Below are positions 1,323 through 33,922 of a DNA stretch of 33,922 nt, in pieces. Made by a program: the position numbers and the translations under genes. Source of the DNA: Alphaproteobacteria bacterium. Lineage in GTDB: Bacteria; Pseudomonadota; Alphaproteobacteria; Caulobacterales; Aquidulcibacteraceae. The stretch is from NCBI GenBank assembly GCA_027484265.1, contig JAIXTH010000085.1:1-33922 (forward strand), given 5' to 3'. The notes beneath the pieces are model-generated. The model was not told where the DNA came from. It did not search any database and saw only the letters and a program-made list of their open reading frames with translations. How positions within the stretch are numbered: position 1 is the stretch's first letter; the number at the start of each line of letters is the position of its first letter.

Positions 1323-1994
1323 ATGCCGACTTCACCGTCCATCTGGCAGCGACTGGCGGAGCTGGCCCAGTCGCTGTTCCGCGATCCGGCTGCCGATGAT
1401 CCGCAGACCGATGCGATGTTCGCCGCTGCCGTGGTGGCGCTGGCGGCCAAGATGGCGCGGGCCGATGGCCGGGCGACGCTGGACGAGGCGGCTGCGTTCC
1501 GCGCCGCCTTCCCGATCCGCCCCGCTGACCGCCCGCTGTTCGACCGGCTGTTCGCGCTGGCGCAGGAGACAGTGGCGGGTTTCGAGGGCTATGCCCGCAA
1601 GCTGGCGCGGCGCTGCCGCCGCCACCCGGGCCTGCTGGCGGATGTGCTGGAAGTGCTGTTTGCGATCGCCGCCGTCGACGGGCGTCTGACCGACGGCGAG
1701 GAAGACTACCTGCGCCAGGTGGGCGAGCTGTTCGGGATCCGGGGGCCGCATTTCGAGCAGATCGCCGGGCGCCACTTTCCGGGCCGCGAGCCGGACCCCT
1801 GGTCGGTGCTGGGCGTGGCGCCCGATGCCGATGATGCCACCATCCGCCGCGCCTGGCTGAAACAGGTGGCCGAGAACCACCCCGACACGTTCCTGGCCCG
1901 GGGGGCCCCCGAGGCCTTCATTGCAGCCGCCAACCGGCGCACGGCCCAGGCCAATGCCGCCTATGGTGCCATCAAGGCAGCCAGGGGCAGCTGA
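1323..1994 (+). CDS. TerB/J-domain (DjlA-like) co-chaperone
   Basis: The 223-residue product combines a TerB-like helical domain (about residues 28-140) with a C-terminal J domain (about 158-220). The J domain carries the HPD tripeptide at 186-188, which in this family stimulates the ATPase of DnaK. The TerB part shows the paired acidic loops typical of the fold: ADGR at 47-50 and VDGRLTDGEE at 118-127. This is the layout of DjlA, but the N-terminal membrane helix of enterobacterial DjlA is missing, so the protein is probably cytoplasmic or peripheral. The ATG at 1323 gives the full domain order. It converges with the Pro/Arg/Trp-rich secreted protein gene, with a stem-loop between them. The domain call is secure; the client proteins cannot be inferred. 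Confidence 0.9.
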   Translation: MPTSPSIWQRLAELAQSLFRDPAADDPQTDAMFAAAVVALAAKMARADGRATLDEAAAFRAAFPIRPADRPLFDRLFALAQETVAGFEGYARKLARRCRRHPGLLADVLEVLFAIAAVDGRLTDGEEDYLRQVGELFGIRGPHFEQIAGRHFPGREPDPWSVLGVAPDADDATIRRAWLKQVAENHPDTFLARGAPEAFIAAANRRTAQANAAYGAIKAARGS

Positions 1995-2008
1995 CCGCGC
2001 CAGACAGA

Positions 2009-2041
2009 GCGCGCGCCCCCGGTGGAACCAGAGGCGCGCGC
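2009..2041. terminator. Stem-loop between convergent genes
   Basis: A 9-bp perfect stem (GCGCGCGCC at 2009-2017 with GGCGCGCGC at 2033-2041) closes a 15-base loop. It lies between the stop codons of two convergent genes at 1994 and 2057. There is no strong T-run on either side, only a short GGCTTT on the plus side, so it is at best a weak bidirectional terminator. Confidence 0.45.
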
Positions 2042-2056
2042 ACAGGCTTTGACAGC

Positions 2057-3412
2057 TCAGAACTGACCGGTGAGCGCCCGGCCAAGGCCGATGTCCGACG
2101 GGGCCACCGCCAGGAGGATCAGCACGCCGTCATCGTCGCGGGTGTAATAGGCGCTGCGGTGCCAGTCATACCAGTAGCGCCGGTTCACGCCCCGTAGGAA
2201 CACCCAGTCGCCCCGGTCGGCCAGCCAGAAGATCCGGTTCGAGCGGTCCACCCGCACATCCGGACGCGGGTCGCGCCAGCTGCGGAACACCAGCACCTGA
2301 TAGACACGTGCGCCGCGCGCGGCCCGTTCCCAGACCCAAGGGCTCGGCACCCAGGCATGGCCGTTCCAGTAGAAGCCGCGGTTGCTGTTGGGCGGCGGGG
2401 CCGAGGCATTCCAGCCCGGCTGCCAGCCACGGTTCCAGCTGTAACCCGGATACTGCCAGCCCTGGTAGCCATAGCCCCAGGTGCCCTGCCAGCCGCCGCT
2501 CCAGCGCTGGTCATACCAGTCGCGGCGCCAGCCCTGGCGGCCGTAATAGTCCTGCCACTGACGGTCGCCCCAGCGCGGGTCGCGCCAGTCGCCACCGCCC
2601 CAGCCGCGACCCCGGTCGCGCCATTCACGGTCGCGGCGGCCCCGGTCACGCCAGTCGTCATCGTCATAGCGGTCCCGGGCCGGGCGGCCCTCGCCGCGTG
2701 CCAGGCCATTGACGGCACCGGCCGCGGGTCCGCTGCCGCGCACCGGAGGTCCGGTGAAGACCGGCGGTGGTGCAGGGGGCGGCGGCACGGTTACGGGCGG
2801 CGGCGCGCGCCAGTCTCCGCCCCGGCTGTCGCGGCCCCGGTCGTCATCGCGGTCACGGCCATAGCCGCCGCGGTCATCACGATCCCGGCCATCACGGTCA
2901 TCGCGGCCCCGGCTGTCACGGACAGGCGGCGGTGCGGGGGGCGGGGTCCAGGCCTGGGCCACCGCAGGCGGCGGCGGGGGCGGCAGGACCGGCGCCGGGG
3001 GCGGTGTGTAGACAGGCGCAGGCTGTACGGGCGGCGGCTGCCAGCGCTGCTCGGGCTCGGGCGCGCGCCACTCCTGCGGCGGCGGGCCACGGCGTCCGCG
3101 GCGGCCTTCGGTGAACTGCGGATTGGTGTCGTCATCATCCGCTTCCGGGCGCGGCTCGGGATCGCGCACCCGCACGGGTGGATCGGCCCGGGCATAGTCG
3201 GGCCCGGCGCTGAAGGCCGTGCGCGCAGGGGCGGGGCTGAACCCGGTATCGGGCAGCGGCGCTGCCTGGGGCGCGGTTTCGGCGCGGGCTTCGGTCTGTT
3301 CCTGTGCTTCCTGGGCGGCGCGCGCCATGGCCCCTGGCCCTGCCAGAGCCGGCATGGCGACGAGGGCCGCAAAGGCAGCCAGTGAGGCAGTGGCGAGTAG
3401 GTGCGTCTTCAT
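2057..3412 (-). CDS. Secreted Pro/Arg/Asp/Trp-rich protein, possibly RcnB-like at the C-terminus
   Basis: The start at 3410-3412 is chosen because it has a good AGGAG upstream and gives an immediate Sec signal peptide (MKTHLLATASLAAFAALVAM, ending PALAG). The frame stays open further upstream, but that part has no coding character. The 451-residue product is mostly low complexity: an acidic/proline segment, a stretch of PPPP and PPAP runs, a segment of Arg-Asp repeats, and a segment very rich in Trp, Tyr and Gly (DWRDPRWGDRQWQDYYG and similar). The last 100 residues are ordered and include WNGHAWVPSPWVW and the ending YYTRDDDGVLILLAVAP. That ending resembles the short periplasmic RcnB (nickel/cobalt homeostasis) domain, but the match is by eye and weak. 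The protein should be periplasmic or surface exposed. It is divergent from surE. Confidence 0.75.
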   Translation of the reverse strand: MKTHLLATASLAAFAALVAMPALAGPGAMARAAQEAQEQTEARAETAPQAAPLPDTGFSPAPARTAFSAGPDYARADPPVRVRDPEPRPEADDDDTNPQFTEGRRGRRGPPPQEWRAPEPEQRWQPPPVQPAPVYTPPPAPVLPPPPPPAVAQAWTPPPAPPPVRDSRGRDDRDGRDRDDRGGYGRDRDDDRGRDSRGGDWRAPPPVTVPPPPAPPPVFTGPPVRGSGPAAGAVNGLARGEGRPARDRYDDDDWRDRGRRDREWRDRGRGWGGGDWRDPRWGDRQWQDYYGRQGWRRDWYDQRWSGGWQGTWGYGYQGWQYPGYSWNRGWQPGWNASAPPPNSNRGFYWNGHAWVPSPWVWERAARGARVYQVLVFRSWRDPRPDVRVDRSNRIFWLADRGDWVFLRGVNRRYWYDWHRSAYYTRDDDGVLILLAVAPSDIGLGRALTGQF

Positions 3413-25216: not shown

Positions 25217-26116
25217 TCAGCCACCGTCGTGGCTGCGGTCGGCGAGGGCGCGGCGCAGGCTGCCGCCTGCTTTCGCCAGAAGCCCGGCCCGTGCAGCGGG
25301 ATCGGTGATGCCGGCGCTGACGAGAACAGCCTGCTTGATGTCGCCGCCTGCCAGGTCGAGGGCACTGGCGGCGGCGGCGTGATCAACCCCCGCCAGCTCG
25401 GCCACGATCCGGACCGAGCGGCTGCGAAGTTTCGCGTTGGTGGCCTTCATCCCCACCATCAGGCCGCGATGCACCTCGCCCAGCTGCACCATCAGGGCTG
25501 TGGACCAGATGTTCAGCGCTACTTTCTGCGCCGTACCGGCCTTCATCCGGGTGGAGCCCGCCACCGGTTCCGGCCCGGTATCCAGCAGCACCGGACAGGC
25601 GGCGGCTTCCAGCAGCGGCGTGCCTGGATTGTTGGCCAGCGCGATGGTCAGCGCACCCCGCGCACGGGCCTGGCGGATCACACCGAGGGTGAAGGGCGTG
25701 CGGCCGCTGGCGGCCACGCCGATCACCACATCATCGGGCCCGACGCCCAGCCGGTCCATCTCGGCGGCGCCGGCCACAGCATCATCCTCGGCATTCTCCA
25801 CCGCCACCATCAGGGCGTCGGGGCCGCCGGCCATGCAGAAGGCCATCCGCTCCCACGGCCAGCCATAGGTGGGATGCAGCTCGACCCCGTCCTGGACCGC
25901 TATCCGGCCGGAGGTGCCGGCGCCTGCATAGACCAGCCGGCCGGCCGTGCCGCGCATCCGCCCGGCGGCCGCCTCCACCGCTGCGGCCAGCTGCCCGCGC
26001 GCGGCGGCAACAGCCGAGACCGCTGCCATCTGGCCCTCCACCATGGCGCCGATCGCCTGCTCGGCGGGCCAGGCATCGAGGTCGGTGAAACGGGGGTCGT
26101 GGGCTTCGGTGGACAT
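25217..26116 (-). CDS. murQ: N-acetylmuramic acid 6-phosphate etherase
   Basis: MurQ cleaves the D-lactyl ether of MurNAc-6-phosphate to give GlcNAc-6-phosphate and lactate in peptidoglycan recycling. The 299-residue product has LVYAGAGTSGRIAVQD with VELHPTYG, whose Glu matches the first catalytic Glu, then VAVENAEDD with the second one, and GVAASGRTPF in the SIS sugar-phosphate site. It also has EPVAGSTRMKAGTAQK. The ATG at 26114-26116 fits the family start; the much longer open frame upstream is antisense to the zinc peptidase gene. No anmK or MurNAc transporter gene is adjacent. It may be cotranscribed with the EVE gene. Confidence 0.95.
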   Translation of the reverse strand: MSTEAHDPRFTDLDAWPAEQAIGAMVEGQMAAVSAVAAARGQLAAAVEAAAGRMRGTAGRLVYAGAGTSGRIAVQDGVELHPTYGWPWERMAFCMAGGPDALMVAVENAEDDAVAGAAEMDRLGVGPDDVVIGVAASGRTPFTLGVIRQARARGALTIALANNPGTPLLEAAACPVLLDTGPEPVAGSTRMKAGTAQKVALNIWSTALMVQLGEVHRGLMVGMKATNAKLRSRSVRIVAELAGVDHAAAASALDLAGGDIKQAVLVSAGITDPAARAGLLAKAGGSLRRALADRSHDGG

Positions 26117-26227
26117 GGCTGCCAGACTAGCCACAGTGGCTGACGGTGACCAGCACCCGGCTGCCGTCAGCAGGTCGTGAACGCTGGCGGGCTTGAAGGC
26201 GCGCCAGCGCAAAGCCATGTCTGGTGC

Positions 26228-26908
26228 ATGATCATCCTCGGCATCCTGGGCCTTGCCCTCCTTCTGGCGCTGGTGTTCGGCCCGCAGTGGTGGGTGCGGC
26301 ACACGATCCGGCGCCATGGACGCCACCGCCCGGATCTGCCGGGAACCGGCGGCGAGCTGGCCCGGCACCTGCTGGACCAGGCCGGTCTTGGCGATGTGCG
26401 GGTCGAGGAGACCACCGAGGGCGCCGACCACTATGACCCGATGGAACGGGCGGTGCGGCTGTCGCCATCGGTGATGGACGCACGCTCGATCAGTGCGGTG
26501 GCGATCGCAGCCCATGAGGTCAGCCATGCCCTGCAGCACCGCGACGGCGATGCGCTGCTGGTGACCCGCACCCGCTGGGCCACCACGCTGGGATGGGTGG
26601 ACCGGGCGGCGTTCTTCATCCTGATGTCGATCCCGGTGCTGGGGCTGATCCTGCGCTCGCCGCTGCTGGTCGTGGTGCAGATCGGAGCGATCGTGCTGCT
26701 GATGGGCGGACGGGTGCTGGTGCATGTGCTGACCGTGCCGCTGGAGATCGATGCCAGCTTCAAGCGGGCTCTGCCGCTGCTGCAGGCGGGCGGCTATCTG
26801 CCGGCAGGGGACATGGGGGCAGCGCGGTCGGTGCTGCGAGCGGCGGCGGCCACCTATGTGGCATCCGCGATGGCGACCCTGCTCGATATCATCCGCTGGA
26901 TTCGCTAG
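26228..26908 (+). CDS. Membrane zinc metallopeptidase (YugP-like)
   Basis: The 226-residue product begins with a membrane helix (MIILGILGLALLLALVFGP) and has the zinc site AAHEVSHALQH, an HEXXH motif with a third conserved His. Two more helices follow at about 127-150 and 155-180. DHYDPMERAVRLSP and LPLEIDASFKRAL-type blocks (here VPLEIDASFKRAL) are typical of the YugP/Zn-peptidase family. The ATG at 26228 is preferred to the upstream GTG at 26177, which adds residues without family support. It is divergent from murQ. The substrate is unknown. Confidence 0.92.
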   Translation: MIILGILGLALLLALVFGPQWWVRHTIRRHGRHRPDLPGTGGELARHLLDQAGLGDVRVEETTEGADHYDPMERAVRLSPSVMDARSISAVAIAAHEVSHALQHRDGDALLVTRTRWATTLGWVDRAAFFILMSIPVLGLILRSPLLVVVQIGAIVLLMGGRVLVHVLTVPLEIDASFKRALPLLQAGGYLPAGDMGAARSVLRAAAATYVASAMATLLDIIRWIR

Positions 26909-26947
26909 CCGCGGGGCAGCCGGGGCAGCAGACAAAGAGCAGCAGAC

Positions 26948-26982
26948 AAAAAAATGGCCGCGCCTGGCGAACCGGCGCGGCC
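26948..26982 (-). terminator. Rho-independent terminator
   Basis: Perfect 9-bp stem (GGCCGCGCC at 26956-26964 with GGCGCGGCC at 26974-26982, plus-strand reading), with seven A residues at 26948-26954 that become a U-run on the minus strand. It terminates the candidate small RNA and/or the two-gene glycosyltransferase transcript. Confidence 0.9.
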
Positions 26983-27046
26983 TGCTCGGATGAACCGAGT
27001 CCAGAAGGCGTCTCCTCCCCGAAACGCCGCAGGCCCGAAGGCCTAC
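26948..27046 (-). ncRNA. Candidate structured small RNA
   Basis: On the minus strand this gap forms four stem-loops in order. First, GUAGGCC-UUCG-GGCCUGC (27046-27029), with a cUUCGg tetraloop. Second, GGCGU/ACGCC (27028-27007), with the loop UUCGGGGAGGAG. Third, CUCGG-UUCAU-CCGAG (26999-26985). Fourth, a 9-bp stem at 26982-26956, followed by AUUUUUUU. The last is a textbook rho-independent terminator. The flanking genes end at 26908 (plus strand) and 27149 (minus strand), so the RNA is either its own unit or the processed 3' tail of the glycosyltransferase transcript. A TTGACT lies at 27081-27076, but the -10 is poor. I recognise no Rfam family. No protein frame with a ribosome site is present. 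Confidence 0.5.
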
Positions 27047-27075
27047 ACGGACTGTGTCGCAATGTGTCATTTGTG

Positions 27076-27081
27076 AGTCAA
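27076..27081 (-). promoter_or_regulatory. Possible -35 element of the small RNA
   Basis: CTTGACT occurs on the minus strand, with TTGACT at 27081-27076. A -10 at 17 bases spacing would be GACACA, a weak match, so this rests on the -35 alone. The start site would then fall close to 27046, exactly where the first stem begins. Confidence 0.25.
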
Positions 27082-27148
27082 GCGCTGTTTGCGTAGCGGA
27101 TATGTGATTTTGCATGGTGCAGCGCAACATGAATGGCCGGAGTGGCGG

Positions 27149-28174
27149 TCAGTCACCGCCGCCGCCTCCGCCACCATCACCGCCGCCCCCGCTACTGTCG
27201 CTGCCATTGCTGCCGTTGCTGTCAGCGACGGTATCGTTCCCCCATTTGCTGGAAGCACCGCCGCCACCGAAGCTGCCGCCCTCGCCATCGCCGTCGGGTG
27301 ACCGGTCCAGCCGTGTGCCCACACTGTCGCCGCCGGGGGCGGACAGGCCAATAGTGGTCATGCCGCCATCATCGTCGCCCTTGCGCCGGGCATCGGCTCG
27401 GGCTGCCCGCGCCAGAATGCGCCGCTCCCAGTGCTTGGCCACCCGCCAGAACCGGTAGGAGGCATAGTTCATGGCGGTGATGAAGCCGTAGGTGCCGCGC
27501 AGCACGTGGCGGCGCTGGAAATAGGCCTTGAGGAAGGCGAACGGGAACTCGAGCAGCAGCCGGATCCACGGCAGCCTGCGGCCCCGGATATCGAGGTCCT
27601 CGGCCTGCATGTCGGAATAGCGGTTCAGCTTCTCCATCGTGTGCCCGATGGAGCGCGAGCAGTAATGCAGGATCCGGCCCTTGAGCTTGCGGGGCACCAC
27701 GCCGGGTTCGAGCTTCACCCGGTCATGCACGATCGAGTCTGCATAGCGTCCGGTGCTGCGGTGCCAGAAGCGGACGATGTCGTCGGCAAAGGCCAGGCCG
27801 TGGGGGATGGTCTCGCCGGGGAACACCTCGACGATATTGAGGCGGTAGGCGGCGGGCTGCGGCGGGCCGCTGGCGAACAGGTCGCGCAGGGCCTGCGCCA
27901 TGTCGGGCTGCATCACCTCGTCGGCATCCACATTCAGCAGCCAGTCGTGGCGGCACTGGTCCTCTGCAAAGCGCTTCTGCGGGCCGTAGCCGGGCCAGTC
28001 ATGGTGGATCACCCGTGCGCCCGCCCCCGCGGCAATGTCCTGGGTGCCGTCGGTGGAGCCCGAGTCCACCACCACGATCTCGGCCACCAGCCCCTGCAGG
28101 GCTGCCAGAACAGGTGGCAGCCTGTCGGCTTCGTTCCGGGTGATGATGAAGGCAGAGATCGGCAGTGGTTGCAT
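27149..28174 (-). CDS. Family 2 glycosyltransferase (WaaE/KdtX-like) with a low-complexity tail
   Basis: The 341-residue product has a GT-A domain: ISAFIITRNEADRL, VVVDSGSTDGT, the metal-binding DAD at 83-85 (LLNVDADEV) and RFWHRSTGRYADS. These match the LPS-core glucosyltransferase-like group of family 2. A hydrophobic/basic amphipathic region at about 200-245 probably touches the inner membrane. Residues about 266-341 are unlike the family: a Gly/Asp/Ser-rich, Lys/Arg-poor tail ending in seven Gly and an Asp. The enzyme is 21 bases downstream of the GT4 gene and they form one transcript ending at the terminator near 26950. It probably adds a sugar to lipopolysaccharide or another surface glycan. 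Confidence 0.92.
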   Translation of the reverse strand: MQPLPISAFIITRNEADRLPPVLAALQGLVAEIVVVDSGSTDGTQDIAAGAGARVIHHDWPGYGPQKRFAEDQCRHDWLLNVDADEVMQPDMAQALRDLFASGPPQPAAYRLNIVEVFPGETIPHGLAFADDIVRFWHRSTGRYADSIVHDRVKLEPGVVPRKLKGRILHYCSRSIGHTMEKLNRYSDMQAEDLDIRGRRLPWIRLLLEFPFAFLKAYFQRRHVLRGTYGFITAMNYASYRFWRVAKHWERRILARAARADARRKGDDDGGMTTIGLSAPGGDSVGTRLDRSPDGDGEGGSFGGGGASSKWGNDTVADSNGSNGSDSSGGGGDGGGGGGGD

Positions 28175-28195
28175 GGCTCCCTCCAGATCGGGGTT

Positions 28196-29239
28196 TCAGC
28201 CCATGGCGCCAAGGGCCTGCACCAGCGCTTGCGCAGCCGGGTGGATATCATAGCGCGACAGGGCTGTGGTGTGGGATCGATGGCCCAGGGCGCGGGCGGC
28301 TGCGGGGTCGGCGAGCAGGGCCTCCAGGGCATCGGCCAGGGCGGCTGCATCCGCCAGCGGGACCAGCCGCCCGGCCGTTCCGTCTGCGAGAATCTCGGAC
28401 GGTCCCTCCGACGCCGTCGCGACAAGGGGCAGGCCCTGGGCCATGGCTTCGAGCACGACGATCCCGAACGGTTCATGATGCGACGGCACCACGGCGATAT
28501 CGAGACTGTCGTAGAACCGCTGCCGGTCATCGACCCAGCCGGCGAAGCCGAGAACCGGGTCCAGGCCAAGACCGGAGGCCTGCGCCTTCAGTGCCGCCTC
28601 CTCCTCCCCTGAACCGGCAAGCACCGCCTGGAACCGGCAACCGCGGGCCAGAAGCAGGCCCAAGGCCGCCACAAACACCTCGAAGCCCTTCTTCGGCACC
28701 AGCCGCCCGATCGATCCGATGACCGGGGGATCGCGCCAGGCCGAGCGGGCTGCGGGCACGGTGGCCGCAACCCGCACCAGATTGCCGATCCGGTGGATCC
28801 GCTGCTGCGCCACGCCTCTGGAGGCCACAGCCTGCGCCAGATCGTGGGTAAGGGCCAGCACATGATCTGCGTGGGCGATGTGCTTGAGGGAATAATTGTG
28901 GGTGATGCCCACCACCTGGCAGCCCGGCAGTGCCCGCCGCACCAGCGGACTGGCCGCCAGCTTCAGGGCCTTGTTCCCATGGCACAGCACATGGGTCGGC
29001 CCGAAGGCCTGCAGCAGGCCGAGCAGCCGGAACGGCGCCCACAGCCCCTCCAGACCGCCCAGCCGCAGCTCGTCCCGCGCCAGCCCGGCGGCATCCAGCC
29101 CGGCACAGGCCCAGGCCCCCGGCACCGTGATGGTCTTCACCGGCACACCGGCCAGCTGGAGGGCTTCGGCGAAATCCACCGCTGCCTGCTCCAGCCCGCC
29201 GCGCCCGACGCCCAGCATCAGATTGGCTACACGCATCAT
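28196..29239 (-). CDS. Family 4 glycosyltransferase
   Basis: The 347-residue product is a GT-B enzyme: LMLGVGRGGLEQAAVDFAEAL at the start (core GRGGLEQ), an N-terminal domain with THNYSLKH, the interdomain region VIGSIGRLVPKKGFEVFV, and the nucleotide-sugar motif SHHEPFGIVVLEAMAQGLP with the E-x7-E pair. SEGPSEIL and GRLVPLAD are also family blocks. The first Met could be 29239 or the next one at 29236; the longer open frame upstream is not supported. It leads the two-gene glycosyltransferase operon. The sugar donor and acceptor cannot be told. Confidence 0.93.
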   Translation of the reverse strand: MMRVANLMLGVGRGGLEQAAVDFAEALQLAGVPVKTITVPGAWACAGLDAAGLARDELRLGGLEGLWAPFRLLGLLQAFGPTHVLCHGNKALKLAASPLVRRALPGCQVVGITHNYSLKHIAHADHVLALTHDLAQAVASRGVAQQRIHRIGNLVRVAATVPAARSAWRDPPVIGSIGRLVPKKGFEVFVAALGLLLARGCRFQAVLAGSGEEEAALKAQASGLGLDPVLGFAGWVDDRQRFYDSLDIAVVPSHHEPFGIVVLEAMAQGLPLVATASEGPSEILADGTAGRLVPLADAAALADALEALLADPAAARALGHRSHTTALSRYDIHPAAQALVQALGAMG

Positions 29240-29291
29240 GCCCCGTCCATGCCTGTGTGCACGGCTGCTGGAAAGGGGCCGGGAGGCGCGA

Positions 29292-29771
29292 TCAGCCCTG
29301 GATCTCGCCCATGGCGGTCTGCAGGTAGTTTTGCAGGCCAACCTTGTCGATCAGGCCGATCTGGGTCTCGAGGAAGTCGATGTGCTCCTCGGTGTCGTCG
29401 AGGATCTTCACCGCAATCTCGCGCGAGACGAAGTCGCGCACCGATTCGAAATGCTGCACGGCTTCGATCAGCGTATCGCGCCCCTTGTATTCCACCGCCA
29501 GATCGGACGCGAGACACTCGGGCACTTCTTCCCCGACTTTCAGCTTGTGCATGTCCTGCAGGTTCGGCAGGCCATCCAGCATCAGGATCCGCTCGATCAG
29601 GAGATCGGCGTGCTTCATCTCGCCGATCGATTCCTTGTAGGTGACTTCACCAAGCTTGTTCAGGCCCCAGCTCTTGTACATGCGGGCATGCAGGAAGTAC
29701 TGGTTGATCGCCGTCAGCTCGTTTGTGAGAATGGCATTCAATCGCGGGATAACGCCGTCGGCTGCTTTCAT
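29292..29771 (-). CDS. bfr: Bacterioferritin
   Basis: Bfr forms a 24-subunit heme-containing cage that stores iron in the cytoplasm. The 159-residue product has all ferroxidase and heme features: LTNELTAINQYFLHARM with the first Glu, IGEMKHADLLIERIL, which carries the Glu, heme-ligand Met and His, and DDTEEHIDFLETQ with the last Glu and His. RILMLDGLPNLQD is also a family block. The ATG at 29769-29771 is preferred; the frame opens ten codons earlier without support. It follows bfd by 67 bases on the same strand and is likely expressed with it. Confidence 0.97.
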   Translation of the reverse strand: MKAADGVIPRLNAILTNELTAINQYFLHARMYKSWGLNKLGEVTYKESIGEMKHADLLIERILMLDGLPNLQDMHKLKVGEEVPECLASDLAVEYKGRDTLIEAVQHFESVRDFVSREIAVKILDDTEEHIDFLETQIGLIDKVGLQNYLQTAMGEIQG

Positions 29772-29838
29772 GGGACACGCTCCATCTGTCTGGCGTGTCA
29801 CTTAGTCTGATCCGGACTGTGCGGCAAGTATTTCCAGA

Positions 29839-30024
29839 TTATTCCGCTGCAAGAGCAACATTATTGCGCACGTTATTCAGAAACGTTTGCATCTCTTGCA
29901 CGCAGCGCCCGCATTGTGCCTTGCAGCCCTGGCGCTGGAACACCTCGCAGGCCCGGTCGGCGCCATCCATGGCGGCCTGATGGACCTCGCGTTCGCGGAT
30001 GCCATTGCAGTTGCAGACGTACAT
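29839..30024 (-). CDS. bfd: Bacterioferritin-associated ferredoxin
   Basis: Bfd is a small [2Fe-2S] protein that passes electrons to bacterioferritin so that stored iron is released. The 61-residue product begins MYVCNCNGIRE, has the four cluster cysteines in CxC and CKAQCGRC, and ends with a short helix. The ATG at 30022-30024 gives the standard start; the longer open frame is not conserved. It is upstream of bfr in the same direction. A probable Fur operator and promoter lie directly upstream, so transcription should rise under iron starvation. Confidence 0.96.
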   Translation of the reverse strand: MYVCNCNGIREREVHQAAMDGADRACEVFQRQGCKAQCGRCVQEMQTFLNNVRNNVALAAE

Positions 30025-30041
30025 CGGGTGCAGACCTGTTC

Positions 30042-30088
30042 TTGCGACTTGGTCGCAATGAGATAGCGCCCCGCCCCGCCTCTTGCAA
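30042..30088 (-). promoter_or_regulatory. bfd promoter with a Fur-like operator
   Basis: On the minus strand TTGCAA (-35, 30083-30088) and TATCTC (-10, 30060-30065) are spaced by 17 bases. Directly downstream, over the expected start site, is a perfect palindrome TTGCGA-CTTGG-TCGCAA at 30042-30058. TTGCGA-N5-TCGCAA is the core of Fur boxes in several proteobacteria. The distance to the bfd ATG is 17 bases. The position on the start site suits repression by iron-loaded Fur. Identity of the regulator is inferred. Confidence 0.65.
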
Positions 30089-30192
30089 GTGCCTCGCAGA
30101 TTCACGGATGCATGTGTCCACAGGGGGGACAGCAGTCGCCTGTGGCCGGACGCTTGGGCGGCGCGCAGCCTTCATGCTATCGCCCCCCGGCC

Positions 30193-31212
30193 ATGCCTGC
30201 CGCCGCCCCTGCCCTGTTCCCGGACCCGCTCGACGATGTCCGCAGCCGCTATCCCGAAGCGGTGACGGACCAGATGCGGGCGCTGATCGATCCGGCCGAT
30301 CCTGCCGATCCGATCGCGCTGCAGTTCCTGCCTGACCTGCGCGAGCTCGACCAGCTGCCGGTGGAGGATGGCGACCCGATCGGCGATGACCGGTTCAGCC
30401 CGCTGCCGGGGGTGGTGCACCGCTATGCCGACCGGGTGCTGTTCAAGATGATTGCCGCCTGCCCGGTCTATTGCCGCTTCTGCTTCCGGCGCGAGATGGT
30501 GGGACAGGGGGAGCCGGGTCTGAGCGGGCCGGCACTGGACGCGGCGCTGGCCTATGTGGCGGCGCGGCCCGCGATCCGCGAGGTGATCCTCACCGGGGGC
30601 GATCCCTTCATGCTGTCGGCCCGGCGGGCTGGCGAGCTGACACGGCAGCTGGCGGCGATCGCGCATGTGGAGCTGATCCGCTGGCACACACGGGTGCCTG
30701 TGGTGGATCCGCAGAGGGTGGACAGCACCTATGCCGAGGCGCTGCGGGTGAGCGGTGCCGCCACCTATGTGGCGATCCACGCCAATCATCCGCGCGAGTT
30801 CACCCCGGCGGCCGAGGCCGCGCTGGCGCGGCTGGTGGATGCCGGGATCGTGCTGGTGTCGCAGTCGGTGCTGCTGAAGGGCGTGAATGATGATGCCGGC
30901 ACGCTGGCGGATCTGATGCGGGCGTTCCTGCGCAACCGGGTGAAACCCTATTACCTGCACCACCCGGACCTCGCCCCCGGCACCGGCCACTTCCGCCTGT
31001 CCATCGCCAGGGGGCAGGCGCTGATGGCACAGCTGCGCCGCACCATCAGCGGCCTGGGCCAGCCGACCTACATCCTCGATGTCCCAGGCGGTGCCTCCAA
31101 GGCGCCCCTCGGCCCCGCCTATCTGCGCGAAGACCCCGAGGGCGGCCTCGAGGTGCTGGGCGCCGCCAATGGCTGGCAGCCCGTGGCAGCGGCGCAGTCG
31201 CCCGGGGACTGA
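30193..31212 (+). CDS. Lysine 2,3-aminomutase-like radical SAM protein (EpmB-like)
   Basis: The 339-residue product has the radical SAM cluster motif CPVYCRFCF (CxxxCxxC), LTGGDPFML, HTRVPVVDP, VAIHANHPREF, and the PLP lysine in DVPGGASKAPLG. It also has VSQSVLLKGVND and KPYYLHHPDLAPGTGHFR, whose core is YYLHHPD. The length is closer to EpmB (EF-P lysine modification) than to the longer catabolic lysine 2,3-aminomutase, but no efp or epmA gene is in the window. The ATG at 30193 is preferred because the upstream extension in the frame overlaps the divergent promoter region. It is divergent from bfd. Its stop lies nine bases from that of the convergent MATE gene. Confidence 0.9.
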   Translation: MPAAAPALFPDPLDDVRSRYPEAVTDQMRALIDPADPADPIALQFLPDLRELDQLPVEDGDPIGDDRFSPLPGVVHRYADRVLFKMIAACPVYCRFCFRREMVGQGEPGLSGPALDAALAYVAARPAIREVILTGGDPFMLSARRAGELTRQLAAIAHVELIRWHTRVPVVDPQRVDSTYAEALRVSGAATYVAIHANHPREFTPAAEAALARLVDAGIVLVSQSVLLKGVNDDAGTLADLMRAFLRNRVKPYYLHHPDLAPGTGHFRLSIARGQALMAQLRRTISGLGQPTYILDVPGGASKAPLGPAYLREDPEGGLEVLGAANGWQPVAAAQSPGD

Positions 31213-31220
31213 CAAGGAGG

Positions 31221-32588
31221 TCAGGGCACGGCAGTCGGCCGCGTCTTGCGCCAGAACCGCACCGGCAGGATCACGGCTGCAATGGCGAGACCGGCGCCGA
31301 AGCCGCTCCACAGCCCGACCGCACCCAGCCCCAGCGGAAACGCCAGCAGCCAGGCCAGGGGCAGCGAGACCACCCAATAGGTCACCAGCGACAGGCCCGA
31401 GGGAAAGTCGGTGTCGTGCAGGCCGCGCAGGGCGCCCAGCGCCGACGACTGCAGCCCGTCCGCCACCTGCATCAGCGCCACCACCACGAATATCGCCCCA
31501 GCCAACCGGGCCACCTCCGGCTCGTCGGTGATCCGGCGCGCGAGGTCGTCGCCTGCAAACCAGAGGATCGTGGCCGTGGCCAGCATCCAGACCGTGACGG
31601 TGCCCATGGCCGCGAGGCCAATGGGCCGCAGCCGCCAGCGCTCGCCGGCGCCATCGGCCTGGCCGATCCGGATCGCCACGGCGCCCGCCATGCCCAGCGG
31701 CACCATATAGAGCAGCGAGCCCACCGAGCTGGCCACCTGATTGGCCGCCAGCACGACCGCGCCCAAGAGGCCCAGCATCAGCGAGGCCACCGCCATCGCA
31801 CCGGACTCGGCTGCATAGCCAAGACCCAGCGGCGCACCCTCCCGCGCAAGCGCCAGTGCCGTGCCGGGCCGCGGCCTGCCGCGCACCCGCAGCCGCCGGG
31901 TGGACCGCGCCACCCGCCACCACAGCCACGCAGCCAGGCACGCCAGCGTCTCGGAGATCAGGCTCGCAATCCCGGCACCGGTGAGGCCGAGCTGCGGAAA
32001 CGGTCCGATGCCATGGATCAGCACGTAGTTCAGCGGCACATTGATCACCACGCCGGTGAAGGCGAAGGCCACCCCGGTCCAGGGCCGGTCCACGGCCTCG
32101 AACAGCTGCTTGAAGATCAGCAGCACCGCGAATGGCACCAGCATCGCAGCCATCGAGAACCAGTAGGGGCCCATCAGCGCCAGCACCTCCGGCGGCTGCC
32201 CGAGATGGGGCAGCGCCAGCCACATCAGGCTGAACAGCACCGTCGCAACAGCGCCCCAGGCGAGCCCCAGCCGGATGCCGCTGCGCACCAGGGCGGCAAT
32301 CACCCGCGCCTCGCCCGCACCCCAGGCATTGGCCACCGCAACGCCGAACGACGACAGCGCGCCATAGACGGCCGCATAGAAGATCACGATCACGGCGGTG
32401 GTGATCCCCACCCCGGCCAGCGCCTGCGTCCCCAGTGGCGCCACCATCACCGTGTCGGTCACGCCGATCAGGGTGGAGGCCGCAAGGCCGATGACCAGCG
32501 GTACCGCCAGCCGCACCAGCGACCCGATTTCGGCGAGCGCTGCGGGTATGGCGGGCCTGGGGCCGGGGGAAGGGGGCGGCTGGGTCAT
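31221..32588 (-). CDS. MATE-family efflux transporter
   Basis: The 455-residue product has twelve hydrophobic helices. Family features are the N-terminal LVRLAVPLVIGLAASTLIGVTDTVMVAPLG (core GVTDTVMVAPLG), the first-half GLTGAGIASLISE, VVLAANQVASSVGSLLYMVPLGMAGAVAIRIGQ (core ANQVASSVGSL) and the second-half QVADGLQSSALGALRGLHDT. Members exchange drugs or other organic cations for Na+ or H+ across the inner membrane. Substrate is unknown. The start at 32586-32588 leaves a short Pro-rich cytoplasmic tail. No good ribosome site is visible. Confidence 0.94.
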   Translation of the reverse strand: MTQPPPSPGPRPAIPAALAEIGSLVRLAVPLVIGLAASTLIGVTDTVMVAPLGTQALAGVGITTAVIVIFYAAVYGALSSFGVAVANAWGAGEARVIAALVRSGIRLGLAWGAVATVLFSLMWLALPHLGQPPEVLALMGPYWFSMAAMLVPFAVLLIFKQLFEAVDRPWTGVAFAFTGVVINVPLNYVLIHGIGPFPQLGLTGAGIASLISETLACLAAWLWWRVARSTRRLRVRGRPRPGTALALAREGAPLGLGYAAESGAMAVASLMLGLLGAVVLAANQVASSVGSLLYMVPLGMAGAVAIRIGQADGAGERWRLRPIGLAAMGTVTVWMLATATILWFAGDDLARRITDEPEVARLAGAIFVVVALMQVADGLQSSALGALRGLHDTDFPSGLSLVTYWVVSLPLAWLLAFPLGLGAVGLWSGFGAGLAIAAVILPVRFWRKTRPTAVP

Positions 32589-32743: not shown

Positions 32744-33475
32744 TCAGGACCAGTGGGGGGCTGCGTCGGGGAGCCAGTCGGGCCAGGGGCGGTTCGGGGC
32801 GAGCAGGCGGACGCGCGGTCCGTCGCTGGCGGCCGGTGGCAGGGGGGCCAGTGGCGGGGGGCGGCTGCGGCTGCGGGTGCGGATGTCGTGGGCCAGGGCG
32901 CTGAAGGTCAGGCCGGCCTCGGTGCTCCACAGCCTGCGCACGGTGCCCGGCACCCGCAGGTCCGGGTCGGGCACCGGCAGCCAGCCCGGATGGCGCCGGG
33001 CGATGGTCCAGGCCAGCCGCCGCGCCCGCTGCATCGGATCGTCGGCGATCGCCGTCAGCAGCTGCAGCCGCCGGTAGAGGCGGCCCATGAACACCGGGAC
33101 CGGCGCGGGCGGGGCCCGCCAGCGCCGCTCCCGCTTCAGCTCGTCGTGCAGGTCCTCGATCCGGTCGCGGTCGGGCGCGGACATGAAGCGGTCGACCAGC
33201 ACGCGGAACACCGGGCGCGGGTCGAAGCAGCGGCGGCTTTTGGTGCGCTTTTCCTGCCCCGGCCGGTCCACCAGCCCGTGCTCGAGCTCGAGTGCCAGCA
33301 CGATCAGCACCCGGCGCAGATAGGCCTCGATCAGCCGGATCCCCGCCAGCAGCCGCCGCGCCACTGCCCTGGGCGCGCGGCGCGGGCGGTTGATGTCGAC
33401 GGTGCCGCGCACGCTGTCCACCAGGTCCTGGAGGATGCGCAGGAACGAGCCGAAGGTCTTGAGGGCCGGATGCAT
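32744..33475 (-). CDS. Hypothetical protein (243 aa), family not recognised
   Basis: The product begins with an amphipathic helical region (MHPALKTFGSFLRILQDLVD) and is strongly basic. A hydrophobic/aliphatic helix at about 50-70 (LIEAYLRRVLIVLALELEHG) and repeated Arg-rich segments follow, then an acidic/basic coiled stretch and a Pro/Arg-rich end (SRPPPLAPLPP). I see no known catalytic motif or signal peptide. Codon composition and the ordered helices look coding, and the competing frames are shadows. It lies downstream of a large palindrome and upstream of the MATE gene on the same strand, 155 bases away. A DNA- or membrane-associated role is possible but unsupported. Confidence 0.65.
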   Translation of the reverse strand: MHPALKTFGSFLRILQDLVDSVRGTVDINRPRRAPRAVARRLLAGIRLIEAYLRRVLIVLALELEHGLVDRPGQEKRTKSRRCFDPRPVFRVLVDRFMSAPDRDRIEDLHDELKRERRWRAPPAPVPVFMGRLYRRLQLLTAIADDPMQRARRLAWTIARRHPGWLPVPDPDLRVPGTVRRLWSTEAGLTFSALAHDIRTRSRSRPPPLAPLPPAASDGPRVRLLAPNRPWPDWLPDAAPHWS

Positions 33476-33570
33476 GGCGGCATTGAAGCCCAGGTTCTGC
33501 GGGCGGGGATAAGTTTGCCGGGATCCACTGGCGCGCGCCCATCGACCAACCGCCGCGCAGACCTGTTGCC

Positions 33571-33642
33571 CCGCTGGACCGCGCGGCTCCTGCCGCGCCC
33601 ATGGCGGGGGCGATGCGCGGCAGGAGCCGCGCGGTCCAGCGG
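33571..33642. repeat. Perfect 28-bp inverted repeat with a 16-base spacer
   Basis: The left arm 33571-33598 (starting CCGCTGGACCGCGCGG) is an exact reverse complement of 33615-33642 (ending CCGCGCGGTCCAGCGG). The arm ends are sharp: the next outer bases (C at 33570, T at 33643) do not pair. The spacer is 33599-33614. No T-run follows, so a simple terminator is not supported. Confidence 0.9.
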
Positions 33643-33737
33643 TCCAATCGATACGAAGCAGCGCCTGCCCGACCGCCGCCTGGCCCCCGAGGTTCTGTCA
33701 CCAGCCCTGCTGGCGCCAGAACCAAGACTACGGTGTT

Positions 33738-33807
33738 CCGCCTTGCGGCCCCGTCAAGGCAACCCCTCCGGGGCGGCTTCGCCAGCCTTGACCGGGCCGC
33801 AAGGCGG
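33738..33807. repeat. Second large inverted repeat, 22-bp arms with one mismatch
   Basis: 33738-33759 (CCGCCTTGCGGCCC...) is the reverse complement of 33786-33807 (...GGGCCGCAAGGCGG), with a single mismatch near the inner end. The 26-base spacer itself contains short pairing (GGC/GCC). It lies about 95 bases to the right of the perfect palindrome. Confidence 0.85.
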
Positions 33808-33922
33808 GTGGCCAGCTCCCCCTTTTATTTGGCGAGCCCCGAGCGGAAAAAGACCTCTCCTTGAGCTGGTGCGCGCCAGCGCACAGCTTTTGGCCCTTCC
33901 TCTGAAACCCTTTTCCCCGGTG

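Follow-up and report, generated by a model that had tools for sequence, protein, structure and literature searches.

The closest described systems to the repeat reported here are the REPINs of Pseudomonas fluorescens SBW25 and their RAYTs (REP-associated tyrosine transposases, HUH/Y1 enzymes; PMC3116915; RAYT group 3 or subclass 2.5 in PMC6006769). As set out in the accessible text of these papers, REPINs are inverted doublets of REP hairpins with a fixed spacer length, they occur in dozens to hundreds of intergenic copies, and RAYT genes are flanked by the repeats (PMC3116915, PMC6006769); Pseudomonas doublets are also better conserved than single REPs (PMC3116915). Our repeat, taken together with the related hairpins at RAYT genes, resembles them in these respects. 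It is also like the GTAG and CGTC REP superfamilies, which the available sections of PMC3733652 describe as short palindromes that carry a tag, recur between genes in large numbers, and are frequently paired and near gene 3′ ends, with CGTC REPs dominant in alphaproteobacteria and reported without a transposase. According to the accessible text on E. coli, TnpA-REP contacts the GTAG foot via residues including Q95 (PMC6006769, PMC8266576) and tolerates no change in the REP foot (PMC8266576). The automatic REP search described in the available part of PMC6006769 required GTAG or GTGG.

The window analysed here is a whole contig (C68) of 33,922 nucleotides from an alphaproteobacterium. Near its end, at 33571–33642, the original prediction placed a perfect palindrome, and this is real: two 28-nt arms (33571–33598 and 33615–33642) are fully complementary, with 0 mismatches and 16 nt between them, and an inverted-repeat search returned at the same site a longer arm pair of 33 nt at 94%. 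In keeping with its description as far beyond chance, no perfect inverted repeat in the window (spacer ≤60) is longer; three mononucleotide shuffles gave 10, 13 and 14 bp. The folding energy of the palindrome as single-stranded DNA is −48.3 kcal/mol, a z of −10.4 relative to 200 shuffles.

The 72-nt element opens with CCGCT and closes with AGCGG. Inside the opening pentamer lies the left REP (33576–33598, plus strand), consisting of the foot GGACC (GGAC plus C), the stem strand GCGCGGC, the loop TCCT and the stem strand GCCGCGC; it is followed by an asymmetric 16-nt spacer, CCATGGCGGGGGCGAT (33599–33614), and by an exact inverted copy of the arm, with the right REP at 33615–33637 on the minus strand. 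Each arm by itself folds as a single strand into a small hairpin with the GGACC foot, a 7-bp stem and a 4-nt loop, a design that is also seen in the hairpins beside RAYT genes of relatives. By modelling, the whole palindrome can form either one long hairpin or two small ones.

Two inverted REP hairpins with their tags outside, together forming a longer hairpin, give the anatomy of a REPIN, and because the foot is of the GGAG/GGAC kind instead of GTAG/GTGG we class the palindrome as a REPIN with a variant tag, a membership that the anatomy supports well. The foot is one of its differences from the SBW25 REPINs (GTAG/GTGG there, GGAC/GGAG here); others are its alphaproteobacterial host and a genome in which we found no family-specific RAYT. 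It falls in neither large REP superfamily: its foot is GGAC rather than GTAG, with GT[AG]G at only 4 of 107 RAYT-flanking hairpins of relatives, and CGTC is absent from its ends. We consider it very probable that the palindrome is a REPIN in the full sense, two inverted REP hairpins and a short spacer that multiply jointly as one non-autonomous mobile unit.

The original prediction had named a repeat element among its readings, correctly, and the check it proposed, a search for multiple genome copies, found them. In the source assembly (3.07 Mb, 326 contigs, 87% complete), a search with 131 nt around the palindrome gave at least 87 match rows among the best 40 of 179 candidates scored, many of these rows being one place seen on both strands. 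Across the whole genome the 23-nt arm core matched 71 times on the forward and 69 times on the reverse strand (≤3 mismatches; 140 in all), against 0 and 1 for the reversed control. We surveyed copies in 68 fetched stretches (393 kb), which were picked for holding hits and are not a fair sample, and found 139 arm matches (≤5 mismatches). Among them are 52 inverted doublets with their feet outside, 46 of which have a 16-nt spacer and 44 of which are exactly 72 nt long; the other 35 arm matches are single or broken arms, with chance probably accounting for the weakest.

The prevalence of doublets among the arm matches and the conservation of their spacer mark the doublet as the unit. Among the 46 spacers of 16 nt, 42 differ from the asymmetric consensus at four positions or fewer and the other four at 7 or 8; such conservation among copies implies that the two arms and the spacer between them spread together, and identity is higher in doublet arms (95.6%) than in single arms (92.5%). 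Column counts were restricted to the 44 doublets of exactly 72 nt, of which 4 pair without fault over 28 bp, 13 contain a single mismatch and 27 contain several. The earlier statement that exactness implies recent origin holds in part: it suits the family as a whole, with its closely similar doublet arms, but most individual copies are inexact. One right-arm column is split between A and G (20 and 22 of 44) and accounts for many of the mismatches. Apart from this column, arm changes are nearly all one-sided, and we dropped the idea that the whole 28-bp pairing is under selection. Two copies (C257 and C309) have a collapsed form in which the outer ends are joined and the middle is gone. They resemble the ‘double foot’ REPs (subclass 2.4), which according to a proposal in the accessible text of PMC6006769 arose when an inverted REP dimer lost its centre; the window copy is a full dimer. 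Rfam returned no family at gathering score for the palindrome, and its sub-threshold hits were microRNA models that fit any long hairpin.

The claim that the palindrome lies in gene-free DNA holds for a simple codon-statistics gene finder, although longer, spurious frames run across the site. The last called gene is on the minus strand at 32744–33475, without a Pfam match and unassigned to a family, and the palindrome lies 95 nt upstream of its start. Other genes near the site (25217–32588) encode a SIS-domain protein, two glycosyltransferases and a MATE efflux transporter. On the other side only the run up to the contig end remains, 280 nt away. This run (33643–33922) is itself a compound dispersed repeat whose modules occur in varying combinations beside REPINs; it contains a two-part hairpin, GGTTCTG...CAGAACC, at 33691–33723 and a second, different palindrome at 33738–33807 with 23-nt arms at 96% and a 24-nt spacer. 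The compound repeat with the latter palindrome gave 31 match rows at about 23 genome places, some of them partial. A further hairpin, GGGGATAG...CTATCCCC, directly adjoins the left end of several REPIN copies (for example, at L036:1923–1994).

Copies are dispersed and almost exclusively intergenic, with 51 of the 52 doublets between genes in a survey where 16.7% of bases are intergenic (simple self-trained gene finder). They also favour the downstream ends of genes: 50 of 74 adjacent gene ends are 3′ ends, where 46% would be expected by gap length, and where the genes on both sides of a doublet were called (23 cases), 11 lie between convergent, 9 between codirectional and 3 between divergent genes. 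This placement, and the convergent pairs in particular, would suit a hairpin that acts as RNA at gene ends (as a terminator, attenuator or mRNA 3′-end stabiliser) and whose copies are kept for that purpose, with no need of present mobility. A stable RNA fold (−74.9 kcal/mol), a T–G pair at one position in half of the copies, which RNA can tolerate, and the view in the available sections of PMC3733652 that REPs elsewhere act within transcripts all point the same way. The flanks do not: TTTT occurs within 12 nt at 0 of 102 flank ends, and 33400–33922 has no terminator-like site, which bears out the earlier remark that no T-run follows the palindrome. The G+C-rich stem thus lacks the T-run of an intrinsic terminator, and the plain terminator named as an alternative in the original prediction is unsupported at this site. 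On its visible side, moreover, the window copy stands before a gene start and not behind a gene end, and near-identical arms and spacer at dozens of places exceed what a terminator needs. We judge retention for an RNA role improbable as the explanation of the family, while noting that a mobile repeat can also be employed as RNA, so that both can hold. Apart from side effects that it may have at the RNA or DNA level, the window copy itself probably serves no particular function.

Non-coding, numerous, near-identical copies with inverted ends would also be expected of a MITE, which is palindromic, has terminal inverted repeats and depends on a DDE transposase for its movement. The search for adjacent target duplications, which the original prediction had recommended, revealed none: 50 copies, examined with two choices of ends, showed no clear excess at 2–8 nt over shuffled flank pairs. 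Single-strand transposition of the IS200/IS605 kind is expected to leave no target duplication. The element moreover consists of two hairpins of REP design, the same design that flanks HUH/Y1 RAYT genes, and we regard a MITE as very unlikely. For a REPIN, movement would begin with the region in single-stranded form, as can occur on the lagging strand; a RAYT would recognise the small hairpin with its GGAC or GGAG foot and cut beside it, and the single-stranded unit would go in elsewhere without duplicating the target. Joined flanks, searched against the fetched stretches only, gave no clean empty site, and the hits obtained were self-matches or shared repeat modules.

The position of the palindrome close to a contig end is shared by many copies. 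In a count of 47 of the 52 doublets (five were left out), 26 are no more than 500 nt away from a contig end, against 10.6% expected, a pattern that could also arise if assembly had created false hairpins at contig ends. Repeats ordinarily break short-read assemblies, which would account for the same pattern without error. The remaining 21 counted doublets lie deeper inside contigs, and the spacer is both asymmetric and conserved. The arm core is also found in public genomes from other laboratories, and of all the readings weighed here we give an assembly artefact the least credence. The REPIN copies instead explain part of the fragmentation of this assembly.

In the public genome collection, whose search may exclude records of the window's own genome, the exact 23-nt core occurs at 31 sites in 29 stretches. 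By their titles, these stretches belong to what we take to be alphaproteobacteria: Hyphomicrobiales/Rhizobiales and Hyphomonadaceae MAGs, a Rhodospirillaceae isolate and Vineibacter terrae. At 23 of the 31 sites the next 75 nt contain a similar head in inverted orientation, whose stem usually differs. No RAYT was detected in the 29 stretches (tblastn, 29 RAYT queries), no viral contig contained the exact arm, and the first 15 nt of the arm core had 0 matches in the text of papers.

Within the source genome, a search with the Pfam Y1_Tnp profile at E 1e-3 gave no match, and the RAYT of a relative (G015) used as query recovered one gene, C158:19599–20027 (E 2.9e-15, 37% identity). This gene is the sole match place in the genome for the NCBIfam REP-associated tyrosine transposase model (E 6.9e-18; 64.9 bits, under the cut-off of 80); it scores 18.6 bits against Pfam Y1_Tnp, below the cut-off of 23, and matches the TnpA-REP of PDB 4er8 (E 1.3e-5). 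Its H-A-H motif and downstream tyrosine region align with those of relatives. On both sides it is flanked by a REPIN of a sister family, whose hairpin is GGAG-CGCAGCTGC-TT-GCAGCTGCG. This hairpin has 41 and 45 matches in the genome (control, 0 and 0), and in many of its variants the two stem strands have changed together, as in CAGTTG/CAACTG or CTGCTG/CAGCAG. Since the REPIN flanking this RAYT differs from that of the window, at least two REPIN families are present in the genome, and the detected RAYT belongs with the sister family.

No RAYT flanked by REPs of the window family, with the stem type GGACCGCGCGGC, was found in this 87%-complete, repeat-broken assembly. We infer that a RAYT was responsible for moving the copies of the window family; the family's own enzyme may have been lost or be missing from the assembly, or the resident RAYT may serve both families. 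A link to relatives is given by the RAYT locus of G015, which holds GGACCGCGCAGCTCCTGCTGCGCAT, the window arm with a paired stem change (a compensatory variant) that is present in the source genome too (C158:25008–25030). In relatives with the window stem type, the RAYT mostly has a WAxD motif. A search of 60 relatives did not recover the complete 72-nt element in any of them, and eight gave arm-sized or weak matches (E 1e-3; best 14 candidates per genome).

We surveyed RAYT loci of relatives and of other alphaproteobacteria for their own hairpins. A Y1_Tnp match is present in 27 of 60 genomes of the same family (own genome included), and hairpins were listed without requiring a tag (perfect stem ≥7, loop 2–5, at least two occurrences per locus), their feet being counted afterwards; an earlier, tag-based listing gave 6 chance hits in 89 kb of shuffled sequence. 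The first set comprised 36 loci, 30 from the Y1_Tnp survey and 6 of 10 found later, leaving out L150 and L155 (duplicates of L054 and L081) as well as L158 and L159. Repeated hairpins occur in 28 of the 36, and the foot is GGAG or GGAC in 95 of 107 hairpins and GT[AG]G in 4, against 8.6% (GGAS) and 6.6% (GT[AG]G) at random places in the same loci. A repeated GGAS-footed hairpin is found in 26 of the 36 loci, on both sides of the gene in 21.

The second set of 18 loci (16 new, plus L158 and L159, already seen) gave similar proportions, with GGAS feet in 34 of 40 hairpins, GT[AG]G in 4, and GGAS-footed repeated hairpins at 13 loci, on both sides at 11. Repeated GGAS-footed hairpins were not found at the remaining 10 of 36 and 5 of 18 loci. 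Two of the four GT[AG]G feet in the second set come from a G-run at a contig end (L220) and two are true GTAG hairpins (L231), whose presence in the list establishes that the method is able to see GTAG feet. The latter locus (L231:1225–1960), a same-family RAYT with canonical GTAG-footed hairpins, is an exception among its neighbours. A further 30 Y1_Tnp loci from the class encode mainly enzymes that are IS200-like or longer, and there GGAS feet were found at 0 of 6 repeated hairpins.

Two loci of relatives were of separate interest. On the 3′ side of one RAYT (frame 1435–2175, minus strand), GGAS hairpin pairs form an array with a 73-nt period (L068:856–1412). In L053, from the same family of bacteria, a gene for a longer Y1 enzyme lies between GGGGACAC-type inverted repeats (63–98 and 1306–1339) that fit the TIR motif GGGGWSAS given in the accessible text of PMC3733652. 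This locus is like the TIRYT elements described there, in which Y1 genes are flanked by inverted repeats, and with its longer enzyme and GGGG-type ends it is unrelated to the window repeat.

Foot and enzyme could be compared at 34 of 48 RAYT loci examined, namely those where the motif was readable and a GGAS REP was repeated. At the position aligned with Q95, glutamine accompanies GGAG in 8 of 9 loci and arginine accompanies GGAC in 9 of 9; alanine and serine (13 loci) occur with either foot, and 3 loci have other residues. The association between foot and residue has a Fisher p of 2.6e-4 with kinship ignored. A tree of the 34 loci requires 6 tag changes, 3 of them forced by well-supported branches, from which we conclude that the foot switched repeatedly. 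Only two supported independent pairs bear on the Q/R link, both in its favour and too few for significance, so that the alignments give a hint that Q or R at this position is linked to the tag. A separate prediction is that GGAC feet should shift the cut too.

Neither GGAG nor GGAC is named as a REP tag in the accessible text of PMC3733652, PMC3116915, PMC6006769, PMC8266576, PMC2817692 or PMC3686654, and a search of titles and abstracts (subscription papers and supplements being outside its scope) returned nothing on GGAG/GGAC REPs or alphaproteobacterial RAYTs. Pseudomonas REPs starting GTAGGAGC, described in the available part of PMC2817692, have GGAGC in common with the GGAG foot of the alphaproteobacterial hairpins; GGAG may thus be a remnant of such a head, and in that case the tag would be less novel. 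Judged from sequence, the hairpin repeats of this bacterial lineage bear a recognition tag different from the well-known ones. It is possible, and in our estimate still rather doubtful, that they represent an undescribed alphaproteobacterial REP superfamily, tagged GGAG/GGAC instead of GTAG/CGTC and with its own RAYT clade, in which the guide was rewritten several times and the Q95-equivalent helps to read the last base (Q with GGAG, R with GGAC), with a predicted shift of the cut dinucleotide. Unlike the CGTC REPs, for which the accessible text of PMC3733652 reports no transposase, GGAS hairpins flank RAYT genes, and they would supply alphaproteobacterial REPs with the transposase reported missing for the CGTC type. 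With dozens of natural RAYT/REP pairs footed GGAG or GGAC, it would become possible to test directly how guide and enzyme co-evolve.
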